The notes under the pieces: generated by a model
Database searches by the model: none
Seen by the model: the letters and a program-made list of their open reading frames with translations, nothing else
What the model was told of the DNA's origin: nothing
Position numbers and translations under genes: made by a program
Assembly (NCBI RefSeq): GCF_900176365.1
Contig: NZ_FWXY01000001.1
Span: 310,001 to 374,000, forward strand
Length of the DNA stretch: 64,000 nt
Direction: 5' to 3'
DNA from: Desulfocicer vacuolatum DSM 3385
Lineage (GTDB): Bacteria > Desulfobacterota > Desulfobacteria > Desulfobacterales > Desulfobacteraceae
In this document: in pieces, positions 14,564 to 56,342 of the stretch
Layout of the letters: every line of letters starts with the position of its first letter
How positions within the stretch are numbered: the stretch's first letter is position 1

Positions 14564-14621
14564 CCCTTTTTATCCATTAGACCACTGACTTGTATGCACT
14601 CCCATGCATTACAGTCCTTAT

Positions 14622-14822
14622 TGTCCAGGCAGGTCTTCTGACTTTCGGATCATCCGCTTCACCGCGCCTTCCCGGACCGTTGGAAACAAAAAATAACAGC
14701 TTTTGTTTTCAACGCTTCCAGTGACATCATGCGGTGTTTGTCCCCGATTACAGCGATGGGCTCGCTCCCGATTTTCACGGGATTCCCTTTTCAGCCAATG
14801 GCACCTGAAACAGGTGCAAAAT
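14622..14822 (-). promoter_or_regulatory. Cobalamin riboswitch 1
   Basis: On the minus strand, in order: an outer hairpin (GCACCTG/CAGGTGC), AGGGAATCCCGTGAAAATC, GGGAGCGAGCCCATCGCTGTAA, a GTCACTGG...GGGAAGGCGCGG segment, and the closing GTCAGAAGACCTGCCTGG. This is the ordered motif set of the AdoCbl riboswitch family. It precedes chlD on the same strand. Confidence 0.92.
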
Positions 14823-14961
14823 TATCCAAATCACCCCAAACTGTCAATATCTTAATTATCATGAAAGGCAAAAACCGGGCATGAAATATCCCAATTAATC
14901 ATGCAGACAATTCATATAACGGGCATCTCCTGTGGAACACAACGAATATTGGAAAAAAATT

Positions 14962-32036: not shown

Positions 32037-33091
32037 ATATCAACCCTCCTTTTCATAAGAAGACTTAACACCACCGGCGCCCCGAAAAATGCGGTGATGG
32101 CACTGATGGGAAGTTCCACAGGGGAAAAAACCATGCGGGCAATGAAATCGCACAGACTGATCACCATGGCCCCCACAAGTATGGTGCCGGGGATGAGTAT
32201 TTTATTGTCCGATGTGGAGAACAACAGGCGCACCATGTGGGGAACCGCAAGACCCACAAAGGCCACAGGCCCGGCCACAGAGGTGACCATGCCGGCAAGG
32301 GCACAGGCACTTAGCAAAATGAGCATGCGAAACAATTTAATATTCACGCCCATGGATGCGGCATAATCCTCCCCCAGTAAAAAGGCATTCAAGGGTTTGG
32401 CCAAAAAGTAGACCAACACCAGTATGGCCCCCCCTGCCACCAGCATGATTTCAATCTCGGTCCATTTGAATCCGGAAAAGCTGCCCAGCTGCCACAAAAC
32501 AAACCCTTTTATCTTTTCTTTTTCGGCAAAGGCCACCAGCACACTGGTGACGGCATGGCATAAATAACCCATCATCAACCCCACAATGAGCAGGGTCACT
32601 CCGTTCTTCACCCGGGAGGCAACACTTAACACCACAAGCATGGTGCCATAGGCCCCGGCAAAGGCGGCCAGGGTGCACATAAATGGGTTTAACATGGTAA
32701 AGCCCAGAGAGATGGTGGAGAGCATCACCACTGATACAAACAACGTGGCTCCGGAAGAGATCCCCAGGATAAACGGTCCCACAATGGGGTTTCTGAAATA
32801 GACCTGGAGCAGCAGACCGGCCACGGCCAGGTAAGCCCCGCCAAGACCTGCAGCAATGGCCCGGGGAATGCGAATGTTCCAGATAATAAAGCCCTTGGTA
32901 CTTGTGGTTTCATGGCTTAATAAAATATCCATCATCTCAGAAAAGGGGATGCTTATGGAGCCCACCAGGATATTTACGGCCATAAAAATCACCAATAGAA
33001 TGCCCACAACGGCAAGGCAGATATTTTGTCGTTTCATCACCTTCCGGCGAAATGCCATGGTGCCCGAAGATTTGATTGCTGTGGTTGTCAC
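32033..33091 (-). CDS. btuC: BtuC/FecCD-type ABC permease
   Basis: 352 residues of mostly membrane helices, about ten. Family features include PRAIAAGLGGAYLAVAGLLLQ followed by NPIVGPFILGISSGA, then GEDYAASMGVNIK (cytoplasmic loop that contacts the ATPase) and AGPVAFVGLAVPHMVRLL. Starts with GTG, with AAGGTG five bases upstream. Imports cobalamin, cobinamide or a metal chelate handed over by the BtuF-like protein next to it. The riboswitch at the head of the operon favours a corrinoid substrate. The N-terminal tail of about 18 residues before the first helix is basic. Confidence 0.92.
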   Translation of the reverse strand: MTTTAIKSSGTMAFRRKVMKRQNICLAVVGILLVIFMAVNILVGSISIPFSEMMDILLSHETTSTKGFIIWNIRIPRAIAAGLGGAYLAVAGLLLQVYFRNPIVGPFILGISSGATLFVSVVMLSTISLGFTMLNPFMCTLAAFAGAYGTMLVVLSVASRVKNGVTLLIVGLMMGYLCHAVTSVLVAFAEKEKIKGFVLWQLGSFSGFKWTEIEIMLVAGGAILVLVYFLAKPLNAFLLGEDYAASMGVNIKLFRMLILLSACALAGMVTSVAGPVAFVGLAVPHMVRLLFSTSDNKILIPGTILVGAMVISLCDFIARMVFSPVELPISAITAFFGAPVVLSLLMKRRVDI

Positions 33092-33112: not shown

Positions 33113-34231
33113 TTAGGATTCAGGGTCTTTGTCAGGCAGTTCCCGGAAAAATTTAGATTTATACCCCGGATAACAGCTGGGATGAATAATAGCGGCAATG
33201 TCCGTTAAAATTTCATCCAGTCGATCCCCGGACTGGGAATAATGGGGCAAAGGAGAGTAAACCTTACCGTCTTTTAACGGTTTCAATCCGGCAATCATGG
33301 GGTTGGCCCGGGCCAGGGCCGCCTTGGAGGTGGCTCCGTTTTTCGGGGTGCGGTAGGTAAAGAAAATCTGGGCATCCTGGCCACTGAACAAAAAGCGCTC
33401 CAGGGAGATTTCAATGCACGATTTTCCAAACACATCGTCAAACAGGTAATCGCTCTGGGCAAGCCCCACCAGTTCTCCCACCCAGGCATTGCCGGGCTCC
33501 ACCAACACTCTTTTTTCGTAAATGTCCCCCCACATCACCTTGGGCTGGTCTGTGGCGTTCCGGGTGGTTTCCCGGATGTTTTCAAGGGCCGTTGCCACCT
33601 TATGAAAATATTGCTGAGCCTGTTTTTCCCGGTTGAAAAAAGGCGCAATGAACTTGACAAAGTGCATCCTGGCATTGAGGCACATGGCCACAGGAGTGGT
33701 GGTAATGACACAGGCCGCTCCCATCTCTTCCACCATGGGGATGATGGACATGTCCCAGGTCATCACAAGTTCCGGTTCACTTTGTTTAAGTCGCTCAAAA
33801 TCAATGGCATTATAATTGCCGAGAAAGGCGATCTTGCCCTTTTCCATGCCGGTGACCACCTCGGGAATGGCCCACTCTTTTTTGGGGGCCGTGACCCCCA
33901 CCAGCACATCTTCTATAACCCCCAAAGCTTTTAAAATGGCGATATCAAAGGAACCATAAGCAACCACCCTTTGAACAGGTGTGTAAATAATCTGTCGGGG
34001 CTCGTATCCTGCCGGTGGTGTTTCCCCCCGGGGGATGAGGACAAATTCTCTACCGGCACCGTCCCGGACTTCCACCCAGCCTTTATCAATGGGATTAACA
34101 GAAAAGCCTCCTATACTCATAAAGCTTGTTTTATCTGCTTTTGTTTCCGATGCATCCTGCTTGTCATCAGAGGTGCATCCGGACATCATCAGCAACGCCC
34201 CCATCAGCATTACCACTAATTTATTTTTCAT
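33113..34231 (-). CDS. btuF: Periplasmic substrate-binding lipoprotein of the corrinoid ABC transporter
   Basis: 372 residues. Signal peptide with a lipobox (LLMMSGC, Cys19), followed by an Asp/Lys-rich linker. The body is a class III binding protein of the BtuF/FepB type: QRVVAYGSFDIAILKALGVI, GNYNAIDFERLKQSEPELVMTW, and VELVGLAQ-like GELVGLAQSDYLF. It is larger than E. coli BtuF (about 266 residues). Anchored in the membrane facing the periplasm, it delivers substrate to BtuC. Its start overlaps the resB stop (ATGA at 34228-34231), with SD GGAG nine bases before ATG. Confidence 0.88.
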   Translation of the reverse strand: MKNKLVVMLMGALLMMSGCTSDDKQDASETKADKTSFMSIGGFSVNPIDKGWVEVRDGAGREFVLIPRGETPPAGYEPRQIIYTPVQRVVAYGSFDIAILKALGVIEDVLVGVTAPKKEWAIPEVVTGMEKGKIAFLGNYNAIDFERLKQSEPELVMTWDMSIIPMVEEMGAACVITTTPVAMCLNARMHFVKFIAPFFNREKQAQQYFHKVATALENIRETTRNATDQPKVMWGDIYEKRVLVEPGNAWVGELVGLAQSDYLFDDVFGKSCIEISLERFLFSGQDAQIFFTYRTPKNGATSKAALARANPMIAGLKPLKDGKVYSPLPHYSQSGDRLDEILTDIAAIIHPSCYPGYKSKFFRELPDKDPES

Positions 34232-35082
34232 AACCTGTTCTCCTGACCTTGGCCCTGGGTCATTGTTTGTTTTATCTTAAACTCTCCGTTTTTCACCCGT
34301 TTTTCCCAGAGATACATGAAAAGCCCCAGGGTGAAAAACAACATGCCGGCAAAATAGTAATATTTTCCCGGATCATTTTTGATAATGACGTGGATAAACC
34401 GCCTGCGCCCCATTCCCCCACTGGTTTTAGGGGCAAAGTCCTTTAAATGGATGGAAATTGGGGAAAAATAGATGGGCTGATTAAATCCCAGAACGGCCCG
34501 CTTTTGCCTGTGATCATTTTTAATGGCAATAACAGCCGTTACGTTAATGGCTCTTTTTGCCATGTTGGCAATGCGATCTCCCCGGTAGTAATCAATATCA
34601 AGTTTTTCCAGGGTGATGGTGCAGGCAGGCGTGGCAAGGGAGATAGATGTTCCCGGCAACAGAACCTTTCCCATGTGGGTACCGGCACACAGATAACTGA
34701 TAAGATACCCAAGGAACATCAAAAGCATGCTGTAATGAATGATGTGGGGGGATAATCTTAAGACAAACTGAATGCGGGTGGAAAATGCGCTGCGGTGTCG
34801 AATCAATTTTGTCATGCGCTGGGTGGTGCACACAAAGGTGTTGATGGAAAGAGATGCCAAGAGTCCCACCAGCATAAACAGCCAAAATGTATGTTTTAAA
34901 TAATGAACCCCGTAGGTCATGGACCACTTGTAAAATCCCACATCATTGATGGGGGCAAAAAACTCTGGATGATGTTTCAACGGATGATATCCTGCAAACA
35001 GATCCAGCATCATCAGTCCAATGATAACCAGGGTCAGGTGAATATGGCCGCAAAAAAACCAGATGGCATGAATAATTTTCAC
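34228..35082 (-). CDS. ResB-like system-II cytochrome c assembly membrane protein
   Basis: About 284 residues. Four main hydrophobic segments: IIHAIWFFCGHIHLTLVIIGL, FWLFMLVGLLASLSIN, IIHYSMLLMFLGYLISYL and a C-terminal YYYFAGMLFFTLGLFMYLWE, with a large periplasmic region between the third and fourth. This matches ResB/Ccs1, the partner of CcsA/ResC in haem delivery to cytochromes c, though it is short. Start: GTG at 35082 overlaps the upstream stop (GTGA) and has a purine-rich AGGGGGG six bases upstream; a longer GTG start lies wholly inside the upstream gene. It lies in a cobalamin-riboswitch operon, which is unexpected for this family. Confidence 0.75.
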   Translation of the reverse strand: MKIIHAIWFFCGHIHLTLVIIGLMMLDLFAGYHPLKHHPEFFAPINDVGFYKWSMTYGVHYLKHTFWLFMLVGLLASLSINTFVCTTQRMTKLIRHRSAFSTRIQFVLRLSPHIIHYSMLLMFLGYLISYLCAGTHMGKVLLPGTSISLATPACTITLEKLDIDYYRGDRIANMAKRAINVTAVIAIKNDHRQKRAVLGFNQPIYFSPISIHLKDFAPKTSGGMGRRRFIHVIIKNDPGKYYYFAGMLFFTLGLFMYLWEKRVKNGEFKIKQTMTQGQGQENRL

Positions 35083-35828
35083 AACAGCCCCCCTGGACAT
35101 CTGAAAATACCAAGTTCCGGCACACAAGTGCTCACAAACATCGTCACCGAACCCAGCAATGCCAGGACGGATCGTGGAACGGGCCGGTACAATGCAGGGA
35201 TAAGATGGAGATGCAAAAACAAAGTGTAATACAGCCACACGGCCATGGTGGTGCTTAAAAGCGGATCATCCCAGATAACAGGAGAGCCCCACCCCAGATA
35301 AGACCACATGGCACCGGAAAAAATGGACAATGTCCAGAAAAAAAATCCCCACATGGTGGTGGTACTCATTTTTTTAATATTTCCTGAATCATCTGATTTG
35401 ATTAAGATCATCACGGCCCAGATGCCGGACATAAAAAACATGGCTTTACCCACAACTCCGAAAAGAAAAAAGAGGTGCGAAAAAAGTGTTTTAAACTGTA
35501 AAAAGGGCAGATAATAATCATTGGGGAAAAACAGTGCTGTGACGGCCAGCAATGAAATTGTCAATAAATGGACAGGATGGCCTGAACGGGAAAAAACCGG
35601 TTTGATGCAGCAGACACCGAGGATGCAGGGTACAAAATACGCGCCCTGGTAAAGGGGAAGCAGGGGAAAAGACGTGTAGTAGCGTACCCCCAGGGACAAA
35701 GCATTGCAAAAACATCCCACGCTTAATAAAAAAGTGGCACCAACGATATGACGCCGGAGCATAAAGGCCAGGCTGGTGATATAGCACAGGGTTGCCGCCA
35801 AAAAACTGCTCTGTATGAATTCAGACAT
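35079..35828 (-). CDS. CcsA/ResC-like haem-handling membrane protein
   Basis: About 250 residues with seven or eight helices. The diagnostic region is WSYLGWGSPVIWDDPLLS followed by AVWLYYTLFLHLHL, a degenerate version of the CcsA tryptophan-rich WG-x-W-x-WDPKE motif and its downstream His. An additional His (LFSHLFFLFG) may be a haem ligand. It is the first gene after riboswitch 2. Start uncertain: ATG at 35828 has AAGGAG 13 bases upstream, while an in-frame GTG at 35840 is too close to that site. Together with the ResB-like protein it forms a system-II pair, but the operon suggests a job with corrinoids or another tetrapyrrole, not general cytochrome assembly (inference). Confidence 0.73.
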   Translation of the reverse strand: MSEFIQSSFLAATLCYITSLAFMLRRHIVGATFLLSVGCFCNALSLGVRYYTSFPLLPLYQGAYFVPCILGVCCIKPVFSRSGHPVHLLTISLLAVTALFFPNDYYLPFLQFKTLFSHLFFLFGVVGKAMFFMSGIWAVMILIKSDDSGNIKKMSTTTMWGFFFWTLSIFSGAMWSYLGWGSPVIWDDPLLSTTMAVWLYYTLFLHLHLIPALYRPVPRSVLALLGSVTMFVSTCVPELGIFRCPGGLL

Positions 35829-35941
35829 GGCAGATGACACGCTCCTTAAAATATGTGCAAAAAACGCAGATGGAGGTGACAAAAGAAAGGCAGTTGCAGG
35901 CAAAATATGTTGTTCGGTGTTTCATGTTCCCCCATAAACGC

Positions 35942-36040: not shown

Positions 36041-36158
36041 AGCAATTTAACGGGGAAAAGTCGACATGTTCACCTGTCGGACACCCACCGATCAGATCGG
36101 TGATGTTTTACCTGTCAGCCCCCAAGCATATTAAATATATCTTCGGGGTTAAATTGCT
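36041..36158 (-). other. Structured insertion in the riboswitch-2 leader
   Basis: 118 bases between aptamer and terminator, closed by a perfect 11-bp stem (AGCAATTTAAC with GTTAAATTGCT) plus further C-G pairs, and containing an inner hairpin CACCGATC/GATCGGTG. The corresponding place in riboswitch 1 has only a few bases, so this looks like an inserted RNA element. Confidence 0.6.
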
Positions 36159-36164
36159 TTTCTT

Positions 36165-36322
36165 CACCAGGCAGGTCTTCTGACTTTCGGATCATTCTAC
36201 TGACTGCGCCTTCCCAGATATTAATATCCAGTGACATGTTTGCAGTGTTCGTCCCCGATTACAGCGGCGGGCCCGCTCCCGATTTTCACGGGATTCCCTG
36301 TTTGCAACAGCAAAACCTGATA
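36165..36322 (-). promoter_or_regulatory. Cobalamin riboswitch 2
   Basis: Minus strand order: CAGGTTTTGC, AGGGAATCCCGTGAAAATC, GGGAGCGGGCCCGCCGCTGTAA, GTCACTGG, GGGAAGGCGC, GTCAGAAGACCTGCCTGG. It heads the run ccsA-like, resB-like, btuF, btuC, btuD, radical SAM, and probably cobN. Confidence 0.93.
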
Positions 36323-36597
36323 AATTATCTGGACAAATTACAAAGGATAAAAAGGAAAGTCAAGCGCAAAAGAACAACCGAACCCAGGGTGGACGTGGTG
36401 GAAATGTGGAGAAGGGACTTTTCAACGATTTCCATTTTGGTTTCCAGAGCTTAAGTAAATATTTACGAGCTTAAAATAAAATTTTCAGTTGATAAAGCGC
36501 CTTATATCATATATCTGTTTCACCCAGCCGACAATAAGCATTTGTTCAAAAACAACATTTTATTGATATTCATCTTAAAAAAGGTCAAGGAAACAGT
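36323..36597. other. Divergent promoter region between riboswitch 2 and the first TonB receptor
   Basis: No gene. A perfect 12-base palindrome GTAAATATTTAC is at 36455-36466, between short direct repeats GAGCTTAA. It could be an operator; its halves also equal the outer ends of family A repeats, so it may instead mark an excised or target site. I see no second aptamer on the plus strand here. Confidence 0.45.
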
Positions 36598-38322
36598 ATG
36601 GCAGACAAACAAATTTTTACGGCAATTGCTCTGGGAATCTGGTGTTTGTTTTTGAACTTCCCAACAACTTCAACGGCATCCAAAGGCAGTGATGCCATCA
36701 CCATCACAGCCAAAGAAATTGAAGCCATGAACGTTAATACCATGGCAGATATTTTAAACCGGATTCCGGGGGTGCGATGCGGAGACACATCGGTATCCAT
36801 CCACGGCTCATCCAAGGTCAAGGTCTATGTGAACGGCAAACCCCTTAACGATCCCACAGCCACCCACGGTGGTGTCCGGTGGGATATGGTGGACATCGAT
36901 CACATTGAAAAAATTGAGGTTTTCAAGGGTAAGGGCGGGGTATCCCATGGCAGTGATGCCGCAGGGGGGGTGATATTAATTTCCACCGGAAAAATTACGA
37001 AATTCAAAGGAAGCGTTAAAACCCATGTGGGCAGAAATGATGTATTCAACGCAAAAACAAACGCCACCATGCTTTTGGGAAAAATGGGCCTTGGTCTATC
37101 TGGAGAATACAACACAGACGATGGATACAAACTAAATAATGACAAAGAGACCCACAGGCTGGGGGGACGACTTGAATACTCCCCCGGGGATGCCGCAGAC
37201 TTTATTTTAACAGCTGATTATATGAACGATGAACGCGGGTTAAGCGGCCTGCCCGATTTTCCAACGCCCTTTTCACGTAAAGAAACAGATATCTCCATTT
37301 TTTCTCTTCTCTCTTCATTTAATGCCGTCACCGCAAAAACATACCTGAACCAGGGGAAAAAACACAACACCGATATCAGCAAAGGTCTGGATAAAAGCAT
37401 TAAAGTAAAAAAATGGGGCCAGGACATCAAGTATAATTGGAAATTCAACAAAAATAATGGATTTAATCTGGGGGCAGCCTGGGAGTTAAACACAGCATCA
37501 GGCACAGCCTTTTCCTCCAAAGAAGAAAATTCTCTTTCTGCATTTTCCACATGGTCCAGGAGCTTTGATTCCCTGCCCATCACCCTTTCCATGGGGCTTC
37601 GCGGCAATTATAACTCAGATTTTGAAAATGCCGTAAACCCGGAATTAAAAATAATTTACAAGAAAAACAGCTGGCAGATATCTGCATCCTATAATCGTGC
37701 CAATAATACACCGTCGTTTTATCACAGATACAATGAAACCTCGTCCACCATTCCCAACCCTGATCTGACCATGGAAACCTCAAACAATTATGAACTGGGG
37801 CTCTCCATGACCCATTCTGATGCACTTTCCACCCACGTGACCTTGTTTTACAACCGGCTCAAAGACAAAATCACCTATGTTCGCAATGATTACGGCATTG
37901 GCCAATATCAAAATTTGGGAGAGGCAACTTACAAAGGCGGAGACCTGGGCATCAATTATCGCCCCCTGGAACAGCTTGCCATCAACGGTTCATACACCTA
38001 CCTTGAAGCAAAAAATGAAAAAACAGGCTTATGGCTAACGGCCAAGCCTGCCCATCGGGCCAATGTGGATTTTAATTTCACCCCCACTCCGAAACTATTT
38101 TTTAATCTTAATTTGTTGTACACATCCAAAAACTACACCAACAAATCCAATACCCGGAGTGTTTCACAATACCTCATTGCCAATGCCCGGGCAGAATATT
38201 TTTTCCAGAAATTCAGTGTTTTTTCAGAAATAGAAAACATTGCCGATACCACCTATTATTTCGTAGATGGCCTGCTTGCCCCTCCCCTGCTTTGGATTGT
38301 GGGTCTGGAATATAAATTTTAA
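36598..38322 (+). CDS. TonB-dependent outer-membrane receptor, short form
   Basis: 574 residues. N-terminal signal peptide (IALGIWCLFLNFPTTSTAS), TonB-box-like DAITITA at about 31-37, a plug domain (MADILNRIPGVRCGD, VYVNGKPLND, IEKIEVFKGKGGVSHGSDAAGGVILI at about 105-130), then a 22-strand-type barrel ending in YKF, the terminal Phe needed for outer-membrane insertion. Somewhat short for the family (typical 600-800). It diverges from riboswitch 2 and its operon, so a corrinoid or related tetrapyrrole is the best guess for substrate, but I find no riboswitch of its own. SD AAGGAAAC precedes the ATG. Confidence 0.88.
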   Translation: MADKQIFTAIALGIWCLFLNFPTTSTASKGSDAITITAKEIEAMNVNTMADILNRIPGVRCGDTSVSIHGSSKVKVYVNGKPLNDPTATHGGVRWDMVDIDHIEKIEVFKGKGGVSHGSDAAGGVILISTGKITKFKGSVKTHVGRNDVFNAKTNATMLLGKMGLGLSGEYNTDDGYKLNNDKETHRLGGRLEYSPGDAADFILTADYMNDERGLSGLPDFPTPFSRKETDISIFSLLSSFNAVTAKTYLNQGKKHNTDISKGLDKSIKVKKWGQDIKYNWKFNKNNGFNLGAAWELNTASGTAFSSKEENSLSAFSTWSRSFDSLPITLSMGLRGNYNSDFENAVNPELKIIYKKNSWQISASYNRANNTPSFYHRYNETSSTIPNPDLTMETSNNYELGLSMTHSDALSTHVTLFYNRLKDKITYVRNDYGIGQYQNLGEATYKGGDLGINYRPLEQLAINGSYTYLEAKNEKTGLWLTAKPAHRANVDFNFTPTPKLFFNLNLLYTSKNYTNKSNTRSVSQYLIANARAEYFFQKFSVFSEIENIADTTYYFVDGLLAPPLLWIVGLEYKF

Positions 38323-38497
38323 CATTTTTTTAAAAAAATAAAAAACCGGCAGGCCATGTCTTTTTATAAAAAACTGAATCCAACGGACCTTGAACCTGAA
38401 TCAAAAATAGAGGTAGCCACATAAAAACATTGACTATTCACCCAAAAGCTGCTTAAAGCGATCTAATAAAATTGTTTGGGTGCTTGATATGCATAGA

Positions 38498-38816
38498 AAT
38501 GTCCCGTGATGCAGTGTCATAAAAAAAATGACACGGCAATGGGATGTTTTGAACAGGGAACCCCGTGAGAATCGGGGACGGGCCCGCCGCTGTAATCCGT
38601 TTTTTCCATAATTAAAGGGAAAGCCACTTCAGCTGTGTATGCCACTGCCTTATTGTATTGGATTTGTTTTCAGCTTGATTTTAAACCGTAATTTTCAATG
38701 ATTTACAAAATCATTGATATGGAAAATTATAGCTTAAAAGCCTGCTTTGTAAAAACAGATGCAATCCCGGGTGGGAAGGCTGCTGAAAGGGTAAGGAGAG
38801 TCAGAAGACCTGCCTG
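38498..38816 (+). promoter_or_regulatory. Cobalamin riboswitch 3 with enlarged variable loop
   Basis: Plus strand order: hairpin TGTCAT/ATGACA, CAGGGAACCCCGTGAGAATC, GGGGACGGGCCCGCCGCTG, AAGCCACT...GCCACTG, an A/T-rich insertion of about 100 bases (38655-38755), then GGTGGGAAGGCTGCT and GTCAGAAGACCTGCCTG. About 320 bases, versus about 160-200 for the other two. It precedes the BtuB-like gene at 39242. Confidence 0.9.
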
Positions 38817-39241
38817 AACAATAGATGAATCATTTTTTCGTGGACGGGAAAAATGATTTAATGATCCTGCCGGATAAAAATGGGACATCCCAGGTCGTTG
38901 TTTTATGATGATTTGGGGTGTTTTTTGCATCTGTTGCCATGGTCTGAAATGCATTTTTTTTGTGTTTCCATGGATACACCGGAATGCGATTTTCACAAAT
39001 ACAATTCAAATCATAAAATCTTGTCCTCGTAAAAAAAAGGCAAACGCCTGTAAATGAAGCTTTTTTTTTCCTGCTTCACAGGAAAGAATACGTTTCAACT
39101 CAGTGCATTGACTTTACATGGACAGTTACGCCACCGGCGTAATTGTTCACCATGTTTAAAATTGCTTTGCAAAAAAAGCAGACCGCAGAAATGCATATTT
39201 AATGTATTTTTGTTAAATTGTGTTTGTAAGAGGAAAAAAAG
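38817..39241 (+). other. Long leader between riboswitch 3 and the BtuB-like gene
   Basis: About 425 bases without a credible gene. Hairpins seen: AATCATTTTT/AAAAATGATT (38828-38860), TGGGACATCCCA (38880-38892), and CCTGT..ATGAAGC with GCTTCA..CAGG around a T-run (39048-39083). One of these may be the regulatory platform; none looks like the terminator shared by riboswitches 1 and 2. Confidence 0.45.
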
Positions 39242-41296
39242 ATGAAAAAAAAATTATTTGCTATTATTGTTGCAGGGATATGCTGTTTGCCGGGATTGAC
39301 CCCGGCCCAGGCCAGTGAAACGGTTCAACAACTGGATGAGGTGGTTATAACCGCCACCCAAACCGAAAATTCCATTATGAAAACAGCATCCAACATTTCC
39401 GTTATTTCGGCAGGAGATATTGAACGGCTGGATGCAGAGAATGTGGCAGAAGTGTTAAGAACTTTGCCGGGTATTTCCTATACCAATGCTTCGGGCCTTG
39501 AACCGAAAATCAATCTGAGGGGCACCAAAATGGGCATGAGCCCCGGTGCTCTGGTGTTGCTCAACGGCATTCCCGTTAATATTGGAAAATTTGGATATGT
39601 GGATTACGAAGCCCTTCCCATTGAAAACGTGGAAAGGATCGAAGTTGTCAAAGGTCCCATGTCATCCCTTTACGGCGGAAATGCAGCCCGGGGTGTTATC
39701 AACATTATCACCAAACGGGGCAAAGACGGTTTTGGCGGTTCTGTAAGTGCCATTGCCGGGTCCAACAATGACCGGCGACTATCTGCACTTATCAATGGCG
39801 GCAAAGGAAAATGGGATTATAATCTCAATGTTAAAAAAAGAGATGAAGATGGCTATCGTGATGAAACAGATATTGACAATTTCAATGTCAACGGCGAGCT
39901 GGGTTACTGGATTTCCGATGATGTAAGAGTTGGCGGCTATGTCAATGTCATGGACAAAAAACGATCCCTTGCTAAGAAACTGACCCAGGCCCAGAAAGAT
40001 GAAGATCCCACCCAGGCAACAGATTACAGTCTTACAGATAATGACGATCTGATCACCGGAATAAATCTGGACATCACAAAAAAATTATTTGATGTCAAAA
40101 CCACAGTTTATTATAAAAATCGGGATAAAACCTACGAAAATTATCTCATGGCCACCTCCACCCCCTACCTTGAAGAGCTGGAAGAGGATGTGTTCGGCAT
40201 GAGCGCCATTGTCACTTATAAAGGCGATTTGATGAGCCGGACCAATAAGTTGTCCGTGGGGTTTGATTATGACAATGATCAAATCGACCTTGCCACCACC
40301 AAAGCAGGGTCCAAGACCGTGGGAGCAGCCTATACCAAACCTGATCCCAAAAAAACCGGCGATTTTGCAAGCGAGGTGATCGGCGTATTTATCCAGGATG
40401 AATTCTCCATTCTGGACAATCTGACCCTCACAGCAGGTCTCAGATACGACTATTTTGAATTTGACAACGACGCTGAGTATGACTTTTCCCAGGGTGGCAA
40501 ATACGATTACAATGACAATCCTGATTATGACAAATTAAATCCCAAGCTCAGTCTTAATTATCAACCCATGGCCAACCTTGGTATTTATGGAAGCTACAGT
40601 CGTTCCTACCGTCCCCCAAGCATTTATGACTATTATGCCAGTGGCTCCTACTCTTCCAAAAACGCCTATGTGCTGGAACCGGAAACCTTTACCCAGTATG
40701 AAGCAGGTGTAAGATATCAATATGCTGCCTGGTTGAACATTGATGCATCCGTATATCATATGGTGATTGACGATATGATGGATTCTGCCTACGAAAACGG
40801 CAAGTATATGGGTAAACAAAACATTGGTGAAGCCACCACCAAAGGATTTGAACTGGGCCTTTCCGGCACCCCGTGCAAATACTTTAACTACAATGTGGCA
40901 TACACTTATACTGATGCCAGATATTCCGACGATATTTTCATAAAATCAGGAACCAATATCAAAGATAATCGCATTACCAAGGTACCCTACAACGCCTTGA
41001 ATGTGGACCTGGGATTCCTGCTTTTTGAAAACGATACATTCAAAGTACTGTGGGACAACAACATCATGGCCCAGGATGGATTTGCCATGGACAATGCAAA
41101 CACCAACACCTATAACGGCTATGCACTGGTCAACACCAAACTTCGCCTGAAATATAATGATTTTACCTGGTTTGTTGCCGTGGACAACGTACTGGACAAA
41201 GATTACGACGGCTATGCCTATACAAGCTCCGGCAAGGATTATTTTTATCCGGCAGACGGTGCCACTGTGGCCCTGGGAGTGGAATATAAATTTTGA
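39242..41296 (+). CDS. btuB: BtuB-like TonB-dependent receptor under cobalamin riboswitch control
   Basis: 684 residues. Signal peptide ending AQAS (about 1-25), TonB box DEVVITATQTE (about 32-42), plug domain (VAEVLRTLPGISYTN, VERIEVVKGPMSSLYGG followed by NAARGVINIITKRG), barrel, and terminal YKF. The cobalamin riboswitch on the same strand upstream makes corrinoid uptake the most likely function; the enzyme would be energised by a TonB-ExbB-ExbD complex such as that at 59-62 kb. SD GAGGA precedes ATG. A rho-independent terminator follows at 41458. Substrate could also be cobinamide or another tetrapyrrole. Confidence 0.9.
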   Translation: MKKKLFAIIVAGICCLPGLTPAQASETVQQLDEVVITATQTENSIMKTASNISVISAGDIERLDAENVAEVLRTLPGISYTNASGLEPKINLRGTKMGMSPGALVLLNGIPVNIGKFGYVDYEALPIENVERIEVVKGPMSSLYGGNAARGVINIITKRGKDGFGGSVSAIAGSNNDRRLSALINGGKGKWDYNLNVKKRDEDGYRDETDIDNFNVNGELGYWISDDVRVGGYVNVMDKKRSLAKKLTQAQKDEDPTQATDYSLTDNDDLITGINLDITKKLFDVKTTVYYKNRDKTYENYLMATSTPYLEELEEDVFGMSAIVTYKGDLMSRTNKLSVGFDYDNDQIDLATTKAGSKTVGAAYTKPDPKKTGDFASEVIGVFIQDEFSILDNLTLTAGLRYDYFEFDNDAEYDFSQGGKYDYNDNPDYDKLNPKLSLNYQPMANLGIYGSYSRSYRPPSIYDYYASGSYSSKNAYVLEPETFTQYEAGVRYQYAAWLNIDASVYHMVIDDMMDSAYENGKYMGKQNIGEATTKGFELGLSGTPCKYFNYNVAYTYTDARYSDDIFIKSGTNIKDNRITKVPYNALNVDLGFLLFENDTFKVLWDNNIMAQDGFAMDNANTNTYNGYALVNTKLRLKYNDFTWFVAVDNVLDKDYDGYAYTSSGKDYFYPADGATVALGVEYKF

Positions 41297-41457
41297 TAAA
41301 CACCATGTTTGTTTTTTGCCTTTGACCTTCGCTCTGCATTCTCTTGGCGGTTTGCAATGATAATTTTGAAAAACTATTATTGCAATCTTAAACCATAATT
41401 ACCGGTTTACCCCATGATTGAGCCAGGCAAAAAAAACAATTTATCAAAGATATAAAT

Positions 41458-41494
41458 AAAATCCCCACTTGCCTTGGTTTGTGGGGATTTTTTT
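41458..41494 (+). terminator. Rho-independent terminator after the BtuB-like gene
   Basis: AAATCCCCAC pairs with GTGGGGATTT around a 13-base loop and is followed by TTTTTT. It separates the receptor from the nitrogenase-like genes, which therefore need read-through or their own promoter. Confidence 0.85.
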
Positions 41495-41542
41495 ATGAAA
41501 TGTTAATTTATCGACAAAAAAAATTAAAAACCAGGGGAGCTT

Positions 41543-43747
41543 ATGAAAATCGCAATCTATGGAAAGGGCGGTATCGGGAAATCCACAATTTCAGCCAATC
41601 TTTCTGCGGCCCTTGCAAAGGCCGGTAAAAAGGTGTTGCAGATCGGCTGCGATCCCAAACACGACTCCACCCGATTGCTTCTGGGGGGAAAACGCATTAT
41701 GACGGCCCTGGATTACATGAAAAACACCCCTGTGGGCCTGCAACGGCTGGACCGGGTTCTCCATGTGGGATACAAAGGCATTGTGTGCGCCGAGGCCGGT
41801 GGACCGGAACCCGGTGTGGGGTGTGCGGGACGGGGTATTTTAAGCACCTTTGCTCTGTTTGAGCGCCTGGGCCTTGATATGAACACCTTTGATGTGGTGG
41901 TATACGATGTGCTGGGGGATGTGGTGTGCGGTGGATTTGCCGTCCCCTTGCGACAAGGCTTTGCCGACACTGTCTATGTGGTGACCTCAGAGGAGTTCAT
42001 GTCCATCTATGCTGCCAATAACATCCTTAAAGGGGTGAAAAATTTTGACCAAGGGGGCCATCGTCTGGCAGGGTTAATCCTGAACAGCAGGGGTACCCAT
42101 GAGAACCGCCACCCCGTAAAAAGATTTGCCCAAAATGTTAAACTGCCCGTGAAACAAACTGTACCAAGAAGTGAATTGTTCAGAAAAGCTGAAATGATGG
42201 AAAAAACCGTGGTTGAAGCTTTTCCTGACTCCACGGAGGCCCGGGCCTTTCATGATCTTGCCCGGGATGTCCTGGAAAACCATACCTTTTACCCTGCCCG
42301 ATTTTTAAATGAAGACGTTCTTGAACAGCTGATTTTGCAAGATTCCCCCCCCCAGGCACAAACAGATGCGGAAAATCGGGTCCCGTCCAAAGCGCCTGGG
42401 ATTAATGAAAAATCGCCGGAAAAAAAATTCAAGGTCAAATCCAGCGATAAAAAAAGCGTTTTTTTATCCAAAAGCCTTCTCACCCGGGAACCCCTGCACG
42501 GCTGCGCCTTTTCCGGAGCCCTTGCCACCACCACCCAGATCAAAGACACCGTCACCGTGGCCCACGGCCCCAGAAGCTGTACCAACATCGCCTGCCAGGC
42601 CATTTTATCGGCAGGGTTCAGGCTGTTTACCCGGAAAAAGATATTGCTGGAAAACCAGATAGCCCCGGCGGTGATCTCTTCGGACATGGATGAATCCGTG
42701 GTGATTTACGGGGGAAAAGACAACCTTGTAAAAACCCTTGAACAGGCCATGGAACAAAATCCAAAAGCTGTATTTCTGGTGACCACCTGTCCCTCCGGGG
42801 TCATTGGAGATGATCCTGTTGCCGCCATCCATGAAATCCGGCAGAAATACCCCCAGATACCGGTGATTGCCGTCACCTCCGACGGTAACCTCCGGGGGGA
42901 TTACATGCAGGGGGTGCTTAATGCCTGCATGGAAGGGGCCGGCGCATTGATGGATAAAACCGTCACCCCCAAGTCCCATTGTGTAAATATCCTGGCGGAA
43001 AAAAACATTGCCTTTAACGCAGAGAGTAATTTTAACACCATTGCGGACATTCTCAAGGAGATGAACATTGATATCAATTGCCGCTTTGTGAGAAACACCT
43101 CTGTGGAGCAATTGAAAGGCTTTTTAAAAGCCCCATTGAATCTGCCTGCCTACACCGACTATTTTGGGCGCCTCATGGCAGATTTCATTGATGAAAGACT
43201 GGGGATTCCCACAGCAAAACAACCCTTTCCCGTGGGGTTTTCCGAAAGCGTTGCCTGGGTCAGGGAAATTGCAGATTTTTTCCATGAATCCATGGCCGGG
43301 GAAAGGGTCATTGACACCCATCGCCGACACTATGAAACCATGATTAAAACATATGGACATACCCTTAAGGGACGACGGCTCATGATTCTCACCTACATGC
43401 ACAACGTGGACTGGATTGTGGAGGCAGCCTTTGATCTGGGCATGGAAGTTATCAAAGTATGTATTTTAAACTTTTCCCAGGACAATCTTTTTATCACCCG
43501 ATATCCAGAGCGTTTTGAGGTGGAAACCAATTATGATCCAGCCAAAAGAGATAAAGATCTGGAACGGTTAAAACCGGATCTTCTTCTGGGAAATTACACC
43601 CCCAAAAACCTGCCTTATCCATTGCACGTGGATATCATTCCCATGTGTCCGGATGTGGGATTTTACGGCGGACTTGCCTTTGCCCATCGCTGGGCAACCT
43701 TAATCAAAGCACCGGTCACCGAAGGATGGAAAAATGATGCCCTCTGA
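41543..43747 (+). CDS. Nitrogenase-like fusion: NifH-type reductase joined to NifD-like subunit
   Basis: 734 residues. Residues 1-265 are a NifH/BchL-type Fe protein: Walker [10 protein letters not shown] (7-15), DPKHDST (37-43), Cys94 in [12 protein letters not shown] and Cys129 in [14 protein letters not shown], the two ligands that hold the shared 4Fe-4S cluster of the dimer. A Lys/Ser-rich linker spans about 268-312. Residues 313-734 are a component-1 subunit with HGCAFSGA (Cys321), AHGPRSC (Cys346) and [11 protein letters not shown] (Cys416), the three Cys positions of P/NB-type clusters. I see no equivalents of the FeMo-cofactor Cys and His ligands. Fusion of reductase and catalytic subunit in one chain is unusual. 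SD AGGGGAG precedes ATG. Likely a tetrapyrrole or corrinoid reductase, by context. Confidence 0.88.
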
Positions 43748-45026
43748 TAATTCAAATATTATTCCCGACAGCTTCACCGGAGCCATTATGGCCATTGAAG
43801 GCATCCGGGATGCAGCCGTGCTGCTCAATGGTCCCACAGGATGTAAATTCTATCATGGTGCGATTTCTGAAAATCAGATGCCCCGCACCGATTTTATTGA
43901 TCCGCTGTACTATAGTGAAGAATTTTATTTTGGTCAGCCCCGGGTGCCGGTGACATATCTGGATGATTACGATTATGTATTTGGCGCCACGGACAAACTT
44001 GAAAAAATCTTACCTGTGGTGGCAAAAAAAGGCCAGGGACTCATTGGCGTAATCAATTCGCCGGGGGCCGCCCTCATCGGCGATGATCTGCTGCGCTTTA
44101 TTAAAAACGCCAACCTGCCTGTTCCCTGCATTGCCGTGGAAAACACAGGCTTTTCCCAGCCCCTGGCATGGGGATTTCAAAACACTGTCAAAGAGGTGCT
44201 CACCCGCATTGCCCCCCTGGAATCTCCCCGGGAAAAAGCCGGTGTCAATTTAATGGGAGTTTCCATTTTTCACCACCATTGGCAGGGCAATATTGCCGAA
44301 CTCACCACTCTTTTGCAAGCCTGCGGCATCCGGGTGAACACCACCGTCTGTGCGGGATGCACCCTTGCTGAACTTAAAAACATAAATTTGGCCCGGTTAA
44401 ATGTTGTTGTCCATGCCGAGTATGCCAATACCCTTATGCCCTTTATGGCAGAGCGATTTAACATGGATAGTTTTATTCCCCCGGATGGCGCCCCTGTGGG
44501 ATTTCAAGCCACGGAATCCTGGATATCCGGGGTGTGCGAAATCCTTGATGTCAGCCCTGCACCGGCCCTGGAATTGATTAAAAATGGCCGGCAAAAAAGC
44601 CATGAAGCGTTAAATCGATTCAATGCCCTGACAGGGTTGCCCAAGGGAGCCACCTTTGGCGTGGAGGGGGATGCCTCCATGGCATTGCCCCTGGTGACAT
44701 GGCTTTATGAGTACCTTGGCATGGTGCCGGTTTCTGTCCGGGTAAACAGAGGAGATGCCCAATCCACGCACAATCTCAAACTATTTCTTCAAAAAATAGA
44801 TTGTGCCGGGGCCTGGCAGGCCCACATGGCCCATGAAATTCCGGATGTGGTTTTTGGAAGCGGGGCCGTGATTGCCCGTTTAAGGGTGTCCGGCCATCCC
44901 TTTACAGGTATTGAGCTGTCCCTGCCGGCAGGTACATACCAGCATGTGATCCCCAAGGCATATATGGGCTCCCAGGGAGCCCTTTATCTCATTGAACGAA
45001 TCATCAACGGCCTGGCCGGTTGTTGA
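43734..45026 (+). CDS. Nitrogenase component-1 beta-like subunit (NifK/BchZ-like)
   Basis: 430 residues, overlapping the fusion gene by 14 bases, so translation is probably coupled. It has the component-1 pattern [20 protein letters not shown] then [11 protein letters not shown] (Cys37), and [13 protein letters not shown] where the third nitrogenase Cys is absent. Only Cys37 of the three nitrogenase beta cluster ligands is therefore kept. In dark protochlorophyllide reductase the matching position is an Asp; in chlorophyllide oxidoreductase it is a single Cys. Three Cys from the D-like part plus this one would make one 4Fe-4S cluster at the interface. The remainder ([32 protein letters not shown]) follows the family fold. 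Substrate unproven. Confidence 0.85.
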
Positions 45027-53837: not shown

Positions 53838-56342
53838 ATGAAATCTTTAGTTGTCTATTCAAGTAAAACCGGAAATACCAAAAAGGTGGCACAAGCCGTG
53901 TTTGATACCCTGCCGGAACCCAAGGAGATCCACCCCATGGAGAATGCACCCAGGGTTGATGGATTCGATTTTCTGGCGCTGGGGTTCTGGGTGGACAAAG
54001 GGACAGCCGATCTAAAGGCCCAAAAATTTTTTAAGAAAATCAAGGGAAAACAGATCGGTCTATTCGGCACCCTTGGCGCATACCCTGACTCAGATCATGC
54101 CGGGGAGAGTATGAAAAAAACCAAAGCCCTTCTGGCGGGTAACGAGATCCTGGGAACGTTCATGTGCCAGGGAAAAGTAGACCCTTCTTTAATTGAGTGG
54201 ATGGCTAAACAATTTAAGGATGATCCCCATCATTCCATGACACCGGAACGGAAAGCACGACTAAGGGAAGCTGAAAAACACCCCGATAATGCCGATTTAA
54301 TAAATGCCCAAAACGCTTTTACCCAAATGCTTGAAAAGTTGCCTAAATTAGCGCTTCTTTTGTGCTTTGCTTTAACGCTTACACTCTTTTCAACCGGGTT
54401 TTCAGGAAAAACGTCCATTGCAAATGCTGCAGGTTCTGATTCCGATGATGAGATGATCATAATGGATAACACCTTAATCACCGCCACCCGGACCGAAAAC
54501 AATGTAAAAGATGTTCCCGTCAGTACAGAGATCATCACGGCAAAGGAGATCAGCAACATGGCCGGAGCCACGGCCCAGGATGTGCTCACCTATGCCGTGG
54601 GGGTCAATTTTTATGAAAACATGCTCAGATCCGCCCCCTCCATTCGCGGATTTGAAGGAAAACACACCTTGATCCTCATTGACGGCAGGCGCATGGCAGG
54701 CCCACTGGGCAAATTCAATGAACTGGACCGCATTACTTCGGATAACATCCAACGTATCGAGATTATCCGCGGCCCCATGAGCACACTCTATGGGTCCGAA
54801 GCCATGGGCGGCGTCATCAATATCATCACCAAAACGCCCCGGAAACCCAGTGGCAGTGTTGGATTCAAATATAGTGTCTACAACGATAACAGCGATGTAG
54901 ATTCCACTGAAGCCACCTTCAACATAGCTGGTGCCGGAGAAAACATGGGGCGATTGGGTTTCTTTCTTTCCGGGAGTGTCATCAAAAATACCCCCTTAAA
55001 AAACGATGAAAATGAATATCTTTCTTCTGACAAGGAACTTTACAGCATCAACAGTAAGCTTACCTGGAAATTTTCCGATGTACTTTCATCGGATATCACT
55101 TTTGATTTCTCCAACGACGACGTGGAAAACGAGTATTTCAGCACATACATGCGAAGTTCAAGTAACTGCTATGACCAAATGGGGACATCCGTCGGTCTTG
55201 CCTACGACACAAAAGAGCTCCAGGCCAATGCAAGGGCCTACTTCTCCACCTGGGAAAAAGATTATGAATCCAGGTACGCCCAGGATTACACCGGTCGGGG
55301 CAAATTTCACCCAAAAGGGGAATTAAAAGATTTTAGCAATGACGAGCGCGAAACCACTGTAGTGGAAGCCTCTGCCTCAAAGGTATTGATGGAAAGCCAT
55401 CGAATCACCCTGGGGGGGGACTGGCGCAAAGAGTTGTTTCACAGCGCCCGGAACAGCACCGGTGACAACCCTTTTACCTTGACACGTGAAGGCATCACCA
55501 TTAAAGGGTCAGATTACGAGCCTTCGGCATATTCACTCTTTCTCCAGGATGAGTGGTTTATCGGTAATAAATTATTGATTATCCCCGGTGTCCGTTATGA
55601 TAAACCCGACGATTTTGACAATGAATTGAGTCCCAAAATCGGCATCACCTGGTTTGTCCATCCACAATTCAGGGTAAAAGCCAACTACGGACATAGTTAT
55701 GCCACCCCGGCAACAGGCCAGCTTTATAAAGACTGGTACGGCATGGGGGGCAAGTATCATATCATTGGAAACCCCGATCTTGAACCCGAGACAAGCAACA
55801 GCTATGAAATTGCCCTGGAAGGAGAAATGGGCAGATTGGGCGGACGGATGGCCTTTTTCCATAACGATGTAGATGATCTCATTGACACAGTCAAGATTGG
55901 GAAAGAAGCAGAAACCGGCGCCACCATTTCCAATTACACCAACATTGACGAGGCTGAAATCAAGGGTTCGGAAGTGGAGTTCAATGTCAAACTTCATAAT
56001 AACCTCACCTTTGAAGCCGGGTATGCCTACCTTGATGCCATCGACAAAAAGACAGATGAACGACTGGAGCAGCGTCCAAAGAACAAGGTTACGGCAAAGC
56101 TCTTCTACACCAACGAAGACTATAACTTTGACGTCAATATCTGGGGTGAATATGTGTCTGATTTTCTCCAGGATAAAAAGGATTATAACTTTACCATCTG
56201 CAATCTCAACATAAAAAAACGTTTCCTTAACGGTGTGGAGGTCTATGCTGGCGTGGACAATATTTTTGATGAAATGGAGAAAGATCTCCACGACAGGGTG
56301 CTGGGTGCCAAGTACTATACTGGAATAAACTATAAATTTTAA
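53838..56342 (+). CDS. In-frame fusion: N-terminal flavodoxin and TonB-dependent receptor
   Basis: 834 residues with no stop between two parts. Residues 1-160 are a flavodoxin: FMN P-loop YSSKTGNTKKVAQAV, FLALGFWVDKGTAD, and GLFGTLGAYPDSDHA. Residues 164-198 are a complete signal peptide (MLEKLPKLALLLCFALTLTL...IANAA). Then TonB box NTLITATRTE (about 211-220), plug domain (IQRIEIIRGPMSTLYGSEAM, about 300), and a barrel ending YKF. An in-frame ATG at 54327 starts exactly at the signal peptide but has no ribosome site; the only good one (GAGGAGA) precedes the flavodoxin. The flavodoxin could serve the HutW-type enzyme downstream, and the receptor would import haem or a similar tetrapyrrole. A sequencing or assembly cause for the fusion is not excluded. 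Confidence 0.85.
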   Translation: MKSLVVYSSKTGNTKKVAQAVFDTLPEPKEIHPMENAPRVDGFDFLALGFWVDKGTADLKAQKFFKKIKGKQIGLFGTLGAYPDSDHAGESMKKTKALLAGNEILGTFMCQGKVDPSLIEWMAKQFKDDPHHSMTPERKARLREAEKHPDNADLINAQNAFTQMLEKLPKLALLLCFALTLTLFSTGFSGKTSIANAAGSDSDDEMIIMDNTLITATRTENNVKDVPVSTEIITAKEISNMAGATAQDVLTYAVGVNFYENMLRSAPSIRGFEGKHTLILIDGRRMAGPLGKFNELDRITSDNIQRIEIIRGPMSTLYGSEAMGGVINIITKTPRKPSGSVGFKYSVYNDNSDVDSTEATFNIAGAGENMGRLGFFLSGSVIKNTPLKNDENEYLSSDKELYSINSKLTWKFSDVLSSDITFDFSNDDVENEYFSTYMRSSSNCYDQMGTSVGLAYDTKELQANARAYFSTWEKDYESRYAQDYTGRGKFHPKGELKDFSNDERETTVVEASASKVLMESHRITLGGDWRKELFHSARNSTGDNPFTLTREGITIKGSDYEPSAYSLFLQDEWFIGNKLLIIPGVRYDKPDDFDNELSPKIGITWFVHPQFRVKANYGHSYATPATGQLYKDWYGMGGKYHIIGNPDLEPETSNSYEIALEGEMGRLGGRMAFFHNDVDDLIDTVKIGKEAETGATISNYTNIDEAEIKGSEVEFNVKLHNNLTFEAGYAYLDAIDKKTDERLEQRPKNKVTAKLFYTNEDYNFDVNIWGEYVSDFLQDKKDYNFTICNLNIKKRFLNGVEVYAGVDNIFDEMEKDLHDRVLGAKYYTGINYKF

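Follow-up and report, generated by a model that had tools for sequence, protein, structure and literature searches.

Background

Known nitrogenase-like enzymes act on N2, chlorophylls, F430 or thioethers. Chlorophyllide oxidoreductase (COR, BchXYZ) combines an Fe protein with two different component-1 subunits, one contributing three ligand cysteines and the other a single one, and it uses this four-cysteine set for one [4Fe-4S] cluster; dark-operative protochlorophyllide oxidoreductase (DPOR, BchLNB) has a four-ligand arrangement in which one ligand is Asp36 of BchB. CfbCD is described as a tetrapyrrole reductase without an eight-iron cofactor (PMC12176620), and methylthio-alkane reductase (Mar, MarHDK) as an enzyme with a P-cluster and an eight-iron cofactor (PMC12552129). 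Here we report on a nitrogenase-like gene pair, HD-K (HD for a NifH-NifD type fusion chain, K for its NifK-type partner), from a stretch of 64,000 nucleotides of Desulfocicer vacuolatum DSM 3385 (assembly GCF_900176365.1, contig NZ_FWXY01000001.1, positions 310,001-374,000, forward strand; the whole stretch is called the window below). Judged from its sequences, the HD-K family is real, widespread and conserved, and it is not a nitrogenase. HD-K is probably a reductase that is driven by ATP and works in the manner of DPOR and COR, with a corrinoid or a close cobalt-tetrapyrrole as its proposed substrate in the anaerobic salvage of B12-type compounds.

The fusion itself is already in print. Dos Santos et al. 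2012 (PMC3464626) give one sentence to a fused nifH/nifE-like gene followed by a nifN-like gene, found in archaea, Firmicutes and Deltaproteobacteria and matching the gene order seen here; that sentence comes without sequences or a function and mentions no corrinoid linkage. Borrel et al. 2014 (PMC4153887) carry a "fused nifH/nifE" as a table entry, and both reports very probably concern the HD-K family. The preliminary description of this DNA had raised the possibility of a new nitrogenase-like reductase; the fusion had been anticipated by the sentence of Dos Santos et al., which assigns it no function. A literature search, beyond whose reach most subscription papers lay, found no paper assigning a function to the fusion or linking it with corrinoid genes, nor did it find the corrinoid setting, the ligand pattern with Asp12 or the NifB-less hosts described below.

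Architecture and ligand pattern of the HD-K pair

HD (41543-43747, + strand) encodes a reductase and a D subunit in one chain of 734 amino acids, and K (43734-45026, + strand) encodes a partner of 430 amino acids; the two open reading frames (ORFs) share 14 bases in the region 43734-43747. Pfam places Fer4_NifH at residues 1-266 of HD (310 bits) and Oxidored_nitro at residues 321-721 (252 bits), and matches K with Oxidored_nitro (160 bits). The Fe-protein (H) domain, residues 1-266 (41543-42340, + strand), has the P-loop GKGGIGKS and the cluster cysteines Cys94 and Cys129. A linker predicted to be flexible (residues 268-319; 42344-42499, + strand) leads to the NifD-type domain, residues 320-731 (42500-43735, + strand), with the ligands Cys321, Cys346 and Cys416. 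P-loop and Cys94/Cys129 are invariant columns in alignment A6 (25 rows; alignments A5 and A6 each hold the window and 24 of the 45 related loci introduced below, the two sets of 24 not being identical), and the P-loop is present in 43/43 collected fusions, the window and genome G016 counted in. Among the NCBIfam models listed for nitrogenase, DPOR, COR and CfbCD, none reaches its cut-off with HD or K: for the H part, CfbC gives 325 bits (cut-off 402) and NifH 323 (cut-off 394); for the D part, the nitrogenase alpha model gives 132 bits (cut-off 486); and for K, BchB gives 77 bits (cut-off 490).

The predicted model of K (mean predicted local distance difference test score, pLDDT, 82; predicted template modelling score, pTM, 0.85; low confidence at residues 53-84) has BchB of DPOR as its nearest fold (Z 37.7, root-mean-square deviation 2.7, 390 residues aligned), followed by Mar (Z 34.2), NifEN (32.4) and nitrogenases (32.0 and below), a ranking that Foldseek gives alike. 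In the model of the fusion (mean pLDDT 82.5, pTM 0.64) the tether, residues 268-319, is disordered (pLDDT <50), the H part matches NifH/Fe-protein chains at Z about 36, and the D part fits MarD and BchB chains equally, at Z about 28. Likeness between predicted and solved folds is by itself no evidence on the substrate of HD-K.

Ligand residues were counted over 36 rows, that is, 34 of the 45 loci, the window and G016 (L075, L082, L088, L092, L094, L097, L103, L106, L108, L110 and L111 were excluded from these rows and from the trees as duplicates, fragments, near-copies or weak relatives). Cys346 and Cys416 of the D part are cysteine in 36/36 members and Cys321 in 35/36, with one gap; Cys37 of K is cysteine in 36/36, and all four align with the cluster-ligand columns of nitrogenase, DPOR and COR. 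The K Cys37 column is that of BchB Asp36, BchZ Cys35 and NifK Cys95, and 3aet_B, a PDB chain of BchB with Cys at position 36, aligns there as well. The arrangement of three cysteines on one subunit and one on the other is that of COR, and the BchY and BchZ rows show the same columns; the aspartate of DPOR is lacking, both BchB rows having Asp vs Cys in every HD-K member. The six P-cluster cysteines of nitrogenase are represented by three in D and one in K. At the NifK Cys70 column K has Asp12, an aspartate in 36/36 members (BchZ rows have Ser there), and at the NifK Cys153 column it has Pro, Ser or Leu. The FeMo-cofactor ligands are lost, with Cys at the NifD Cys275 column in 1/36 members and His at the His442 column in 0/36. 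In these alignments HD-K combines the ligand set of COR with an acidic residue where nitrogenase has a P-cluster cysteine, a pattern that is not known from any described member. The preliminary description had read the fusion and its partner, the three-plus-one cysteine set and the absence of FeMo-cofactor ligands from the DNA, and all of these stand; the invariant Asp12, and the hairpin discussed below, go beyond it.

HD-K as a separate family

Scanning species genomes with seven K sequences yielded 45 related loci, from Desulfobacterota, deltaproteobacterial metagenome-assembled genomes (MAGs), Chloroflexota, Clostridia, Thermoleophilia, Planctomycetota, Methanosarcinales, Methanomassiliicoccales-type archaea and Bathyarchaeia (loci and genomes are cited below by L and G numbers where they must be told apart). 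A script found the H-D fusion directly 5' of K in 41/45 loci, and a chance overlap of ORFs was rejected on this ground. The other four loci comprise L097, where a 738-aa frame with the H motif is visible, the fragment L075, and two weak relatives, L110 and L111, that lack the fusion. Strong K matches were found in 3/57 other genomes of a first set (G016, G007, G022) and in 3/394 other genomes drawn from the phylum (G093, G133, G443); other nitrogenase-type proteins were matched more weakly but more often (17/58 genomes at 0.001 and 40/395 at 1e-10, own genome included).

A quick tree of 109 rows, with references for Nif D/K/E/N, alternative nitrogenase, BchN/B/Y/Z, CfbD, other Nfl rows and a MarK segment, gathers the 36 D parts in one clade (SH-like approximate likelihood-ratio test, SH-aLRT, 100) and the 36 K parts in another (94). 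In a careful tree of K-type rows, 35 K parts stand on one side of a branch with support 97/91, and the approximately unbiased (AU) test rejects a clade formed by the K family and MarK alone (p 0.002, with a partial MarK row); the K of L109 was dropped from this tree, from the AU test and from the count of linkage changes below for its long branch. The D and K clades are separate from BchY/BchZ, so that the placement expected of a COR is not obtained, and the CfbD rows form a clade of their own. The trees give no firm order for the HD-K family and the Bch and Nif clades, since several deep nodes are weakly supported and long branches meet. Reference labels were assigned by us, with an NCBIfam check on three CfbD rows and one each of BchY, BchZ, BchN, BchB, NifD and NifK; the BchZ reference row scored 520 bits (cut-off 529), and the row from L147 labelled NflK had no NCBIfam match at 1e-30. 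On these trees HD-K is a separate family, with D and K clades that exclude the Nif, Bch, CfbD and MarK rows; the preliminary description had left room for a position inside Nif, Mar or CfbCD, and the D and K parts are nested in none of these.

The host genome (5.04 Mb, 80 contigs, 98% complete) has only two PF00148 matches, both from the HD-K pair, and a search for NifB in it found none (best 24 bits vs cut-off 344). With neither NifB nor another PF00148 pair in the host, a nitrogenase-type cofactor is very unlikely. Thirteen pair-bearing genomes were tested for NifB, and six have no match above cut-off, namely the host, Clostridium tetanomorphum, and MAGs of Marinisporobacter, Eubacterium, a Syntrophaceae member and a deltaproteobacterium, which as MAGs may be incomplete. 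HD-K is the only PF00148 pair in four NifB-less genomes (the host, G000, and G456, G458 and G459), and NifB-less G460 has two copies of HD-K and no other PF00148 pair. A separate CfbD occurs in three methanogens that bear HD-K (G450, G451, G452). As a side observation, the genome of C. tetanomorphum (G453) holds a second, unfused nitrogenase-like pair at L151:1492-4012.

Three described enzymes were considered as identities for the pair and rejected: nitrogenase, for the lost FeMo-cofactor ligands, the incomplete P-cluster set and the absence of NifB from the host; CfbCD, for the two subunits of HD-K and the separate CfbD of methanogens; and Mar, for the loss of the columns equivalent to its Cys270/His429, the absence of NifB from the host and the AU test. 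HD-K does share features with each of its closest described systems. With COR it has in common an Fe protein, two different component-1 subunits and the distribution of the four cysteines, but its H part is fused to D, its clades lie apart from BchY/BchZ, its neighbours belong to B12 rather than chlorophyll metabolism, and K has the invariant Asp12 vs Ser in BchZ rows. It resembles DPOR in its four-ligand arrangement and in the fold predicted for K, and differs in having Cys37 for Asp36, a fused H part, B12 neighbours and scores far under the DPOR cut-offs. The H domain reaches 325 bits for CfbC, under its cut-off, and a further likeness to CfbCD would be the reduction of a tetrapyrrole without an eight-iron cofactor; CfbD is encoded by a single gene, forms a homodimer and has Ser at the Cys321 column, whereas HD-K has two different subunit genes. 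MarHDK shows the same nitrogenase-like HDK architecture and a similar fold, but the ligands of its P-cluster and eight-iron cofactor are missing from HD-K; the MarD cofactor ligands Cys270/His429 (PMC12552129) were taken as equivalent to NifD Cys275/His442.

Partial linkage of HD-K to corrinoid genes

The corrinoid linkage of HD-K appears to be real but is partial. A cobalamin-clan riboswitch lies in the scanned stretch of 11/25 bacterial pair-bearing genomes, against 1.03 expected from a background of 129 cobalamin riboswitches in 49.8 Mb of twelve genomes (one per 386 kb), and 0/400,000 simulations reached 11 genomes. The background rate may be low, only 100 first-look candidates having been scored in most of the twelve genomes; at the riboswitch rate of the richest genome, 3.4 are expected (P 0.00016). 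Several of the twelve were chosen for linkage, and the 8/12 figure from that set is biased. The Rfam riboswitch scan covered the bacterial loci, with archaeal loci outside it, and the riboswitch and marker lists for these statistics were compiled by hand. A riboswitch lies upstream of the pair and on the same strand in L066/L089, L070, L090, L091, L074 (3.7 kb upstream, with other genes between) and the window (where a TonB gene and a hairpin intervene). A specific corrinoid marker (riboswitch, CbiZ, CbiK, CobN, ChlI or adenosyltransferase) is near the pair in 17/42 genomes; the 42 exclude L110 and L111, count loci of the same assembly once and include L075, a fragment with no visible H part. 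On the K tree the linked state (16/35 rows) requires at least 8 changes, so the linkage is not one inherited cluster and comes and goes across the family.

The most extensive clusters read in one direction from a riboswitch. In L066/L089 (Syntrophobacteraceae) one cobalamin riboswitch is followed on the same strand by TonB, HD, K, BtuF, BtuC and an ABC ATPase, and the run continues with a frame containing a CbiZ-like part, a carbon-nitrogen hydrolase, a radical SAM protein and CobN. In L091 (Syntrophaceae) the order on one strand is riboswitch, TonB, BtuF, HD, K, BtuC, ABC ATPase, hydrolase, radical SAM, CobN and ChlI, and the only two cobalamin riboswitches detected in that genome both head this run. 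L090 has a riboswitch 317 bases 5' of HD, then K, then the adenosyltransferase CobA (208 bits, cut-off 168), and L070 (Chloroflexaceae) has a weaker riboswitch (53 bits) directly before HD. Archaeal clusters include L079 (Methanococcoides), with a CbiZ fragment, ChlI, ChlI/D, BtuF, BtuC, ABC ATPase, HD, K, CbiK and CobN, and L080 (Methanolobus), with CbiZ, BtuFCD, HD, K and CbiK; L100 reads CbiZ, HD, K, CbiK and L096 reads CbiZ, BtuFCD, HD, K. CbiK lies beside the pair in L079, L080, L088 and L100, and CobN does so in L066/L089, L079 and L091, with a CobN-clustered fragment in L088. L098, L099, L104, L105, L109 and L112 have BtuC-type transporters only and were not scored as corrinoid-linked. 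Some neighbour labels (PduO, CbiM, MsrA/B, branched-chain ABC transporter, MetE-like, CobT) were given by eye from sequence: we take the gene divergent from HD in L095 to be of PduO type, the one adjoining the pair in G016 to be MsrA/B-like, and the transporter 3' of the pair in G007 and G022 to be presumably an ABC transporter of branched-chain amino acid type.

In the window, a cobalamin riboswitch (38496-38831, + strand; Rfam RF00174, 58.3 bits) lies upstream of the gene for a TonB-dependent receptor (39242-41296, + strand, Pfam) that adjoins the fusion; a second TonB-dependent receptor is encoded at 36598-38322 (+ strand, Pfam). On the - strand, another cobalamin riboswitch (36153-36335; RF00174, 110 bits) heads a BtuFCD-type gene run with a BtuF-like periplasmic binding protein (33113-34231; Pfam Peripla_BP_2), a permease whose best NCBIfam model is BtuC, under cut-off (32033-33091; 202 bits vs 334), and an ABC ATPase whose best model is a corrinoid ABC transporter ATPase, also under cut-off (30813-32036; 220 bits vs 537). 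A radical SAM protein (29794-30807, - strand) follows; by protein comparison the L066 and L091 runs contain relatives of both it and the BtuF-like protein. Next is a CobN-type chelatase subunit (25439-29314, - strand; NCBIfam TIGR02257, 945 bits vs cut-off 822), which nearly reaches the BchH model as well (828.2 vs cut-off 829). Further off, again on the - strand and by Pfam, are a ChlI/ChlD-type AAA + VWA chelatase subunit (12361-14421), preceded by a third cobalamin riboswitch (14611-14823; RF00174, 102.8 bits), and a ChlI-type AAA chelatase subunit (10700-11752). The three riboswitches, cobN and ChlID genes of the preliminary description are thus found again by Rfam, NCBIfam and Pfam. As observations in their own right, the BtuFCD-type run is headed by genes for ResB-like and cytochrome c assembly-like (CcsA-like) membrane proteins (34228-35903, - strand, weak Pfam matches), an odd site for cytochrome assembly genes, and host contig C47 carries 7/17 of the cobalamin riboswitches found in the host, whose genome encodes several CobN-type proteins.

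A terminator-like hairpin with seven T (41452-41496, + strand) lies 47 bases 5' of the fusion's ATG and was recognised from the sequence and its centroid fold. The 180-base stretch around it folds overall no better than shuffles (z -0.63); the whole stretch being unremarkable, the call rests on the stem and the T-run. A pattern scan restricted to loops of 3-8 did not list the hairpin, and for 41280-41560 all Rfam matches at the E-value threshold were under gathering scores.

Proposed function and alternatives

The reading of HD-K as a DPOR/COR-type reductase of corrinoids suggests the following mechanism. Two fused chains would assemble with two K chains into (HD)2K2; in this complex the tethered H domains, once ATP-bound, would pair as one Fe-protein dimer and dock on either DK half. 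Powered by ATP hydrolysis, electrons would move one at a time from the H2 cluster onto the four-cysteine D/K cluster, and from there they would pass to a corrinoid held in a pocket equivalent to the protochlorophyllide site of DPOR. The steps up to the cluster are drawn from family knowledge and ligand conservation, and the corrinoid substrate from gene linkage. The acceptor is the least certain step and may be the macrocycle, as in DPOR, COR and CfbCD, or the cobalt (Co(II) to Co(I)); Co(I) would feed an adenosyltransferase or aid a CobN-type chelatase in metal exchange. CobA next to K in L090 fits reduction of Co(II) to Co(I), and the chelatase neighbours (CobN, ChlI/D, CbiK) fit metal exchange after reduction, comparable to that of NADH-dependent HmuS (PMC12583661). 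We would venture, with rather more reserve, that the self-tethered fusion uses ATP to deliver electrons to the ring of an imported B12-type compound, or to its cobalt, enabling metal exchange or re-adenosylation, and that Asp12 replaces a P-cluster cysteine. If the corrinoid reading is true, B12 chemistry would join the nitrogenase-like repertoire, and anaerobic corrinoid salvage would have a reductase; the Methanococcoides cluster offers a concrete setting for testing this role. Through the fusion, Fe protein and catalytic protein are present in a fixed ratio, which should be useful for studies of electron delivery.

Several findings weigh against corrinoid reduction. No specific corrinoid marker occurs in the stretch examined in 25/42 genomes (some contigs being short). 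The window's three nearest relatives, G016, G007 and G022, have neither such a marker nor a detected riboswitch, and the Methanosarcina copies (L078, L086, L087, L092) stand alone; the survey of linkage that the preliminary description called for shows it in the 17 linked genomes. In 5/11 riboswitch-bearing cases the riboswitch lies downstream of the pair, before other genes (L071, which has one further riboswitch about 5.5 kb upstream of its pair, L072, L076, L081 and L094). L089/L066, L090 and L091 all fall within one subclade of the family. In the window itself, the hairpin separates the riboswitch-led TonB gene from HD-K, and the riboswitch at 38496-38831 could control HD-K only with the help of readthrough or an internal promoter; the argument of the preliminary description from position to a corrinoid substrate is weakened here and strengthened by the linkage seen elsewhere. 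CbiC was found in 12/14 genomes tested, so most carriers probably make their own corrinoids. NifB is present in 7/13 pair-bearing genomes tested, and Methanococcoides is among the seven yet lacks a nif pair. Methanogens are thought to require NifB for activation of methyl-coenzyme M reductase (PMC12176620), and several other HD-K carriers hold nif genes, so NifB in those genomes needs no tie to HD-K. Nor are four cysteines, as aligned here, by themselves proof of cluster type.

The two possible acceptors make two branches of the corrinoid-reductase reading. Reduction of a double bond by addition of electrons and protons, in a tetrapyrrole that is either imported or unusual, with the chelatases CobN/ChlID or CbiK acting afterwards, is a tentative possibility that draws on the COR-type ligand set, on the likeness of K to the BchB fold (which reveals no substrate), on the adjacent chelatases (CbiK in L079, L080, L088 and L100; CobN in L066, L079 and L091) and on a sporadic spread that fits accessory salvage chemistry; we know, on the other side, of no intermediate or product that would need reduction of the macrocycle. 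Reduction of Co(II) to Co(I) in a salvaged corrinoid for CobA or PduO, which would make HD-K an anaerobic counterpart of CobR between CobN and CobO, we hold to be rather unlikely. The order riboswitch-HD-K-CobA in L090 suggests it, as do the gene of presumed PduO type in L095 (labelled by eye) and CobN in L066/L089, L079 and L091, in the CobN-clustered fragment of L088 and 12 kb away in the window. Adenosyltransferases, however, are near the pair in only 2/42 genomes, and the rarity of strong K matches (3/57 and 3/394 other genomes) excludes a general anaerobic cobalt reductase.

Outside the corrinoids, it is improbable that HD-K is a reductase of sulfur compounds or other small molecules like Mar, with its B12 neighbourhood incidental. 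By sequence and by fold, chains of Mar rank among the closest relatives with a solved structure, some HD-K copies adjoin other transporters, and Mar-like genes are reported near methyltransferase gene clusters (PMC10418091); but the ligands corresponding to MarD Cys270/His429 (PMC12552129) sit in the lost Cys275/His442 columns, K is without two of three P-cluster cysteines, the host is without NifB, and a clade of K with MarK is rejected (AU p 0.002, partial MarK). An enzyme of heme or another iron-tetrapyrrole, in which the BtuFCD/CobN-type genes would serve heme uptake (as hmu or BtuS-like genes) and the pair would reduce heme for de-chelation, seems equally doubtful. The CobN relatives HmuS, which removes iron from heme with NADH (PMC12583661), and BtuS, which serves iron release from heme (PMC6460266), lend it some plausibility, as do the almost equal BchH score of the window's CobN and the ResB- and CcsA-like proteins within the same gene run, but cobalamin riboswitches lead the runs in several lineages, and the neighbours CbiZ, CbiK and CobA indicate corrinoids.

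Further observations

The carbon-nitrogen hydrolase and the radical SAM protein stand side by side in both riboswitch-led runs (L066:11556-14074 and L091:13424-15978). In Marinisporobacter an ATP pyrophosphatase of diphthamide-synthase type directly precedes the fusion (L076:5400-6068, Pfam PF01902; L083:7132-7791; L094:4305-5024), and a relative of it also lies before the fusion in L109 (Planctomycetota). Both Chloroflexota copies have a protein of about 350 aa 3' of the pair (L070:11321-12373 and L072:5021-6055); the one in L070 found no match in Pfam (0.001), NCBIfam (1e-20) or PDB sequences (0.1). In the window, an 834-aa frame at 53838-56342 (+ strand) joins a flavodoxin domain (residues 1-161) to a TonB-dependent receptor (plug 223-326, barrel 348-809) and represents either a true fusion or a lost stop.

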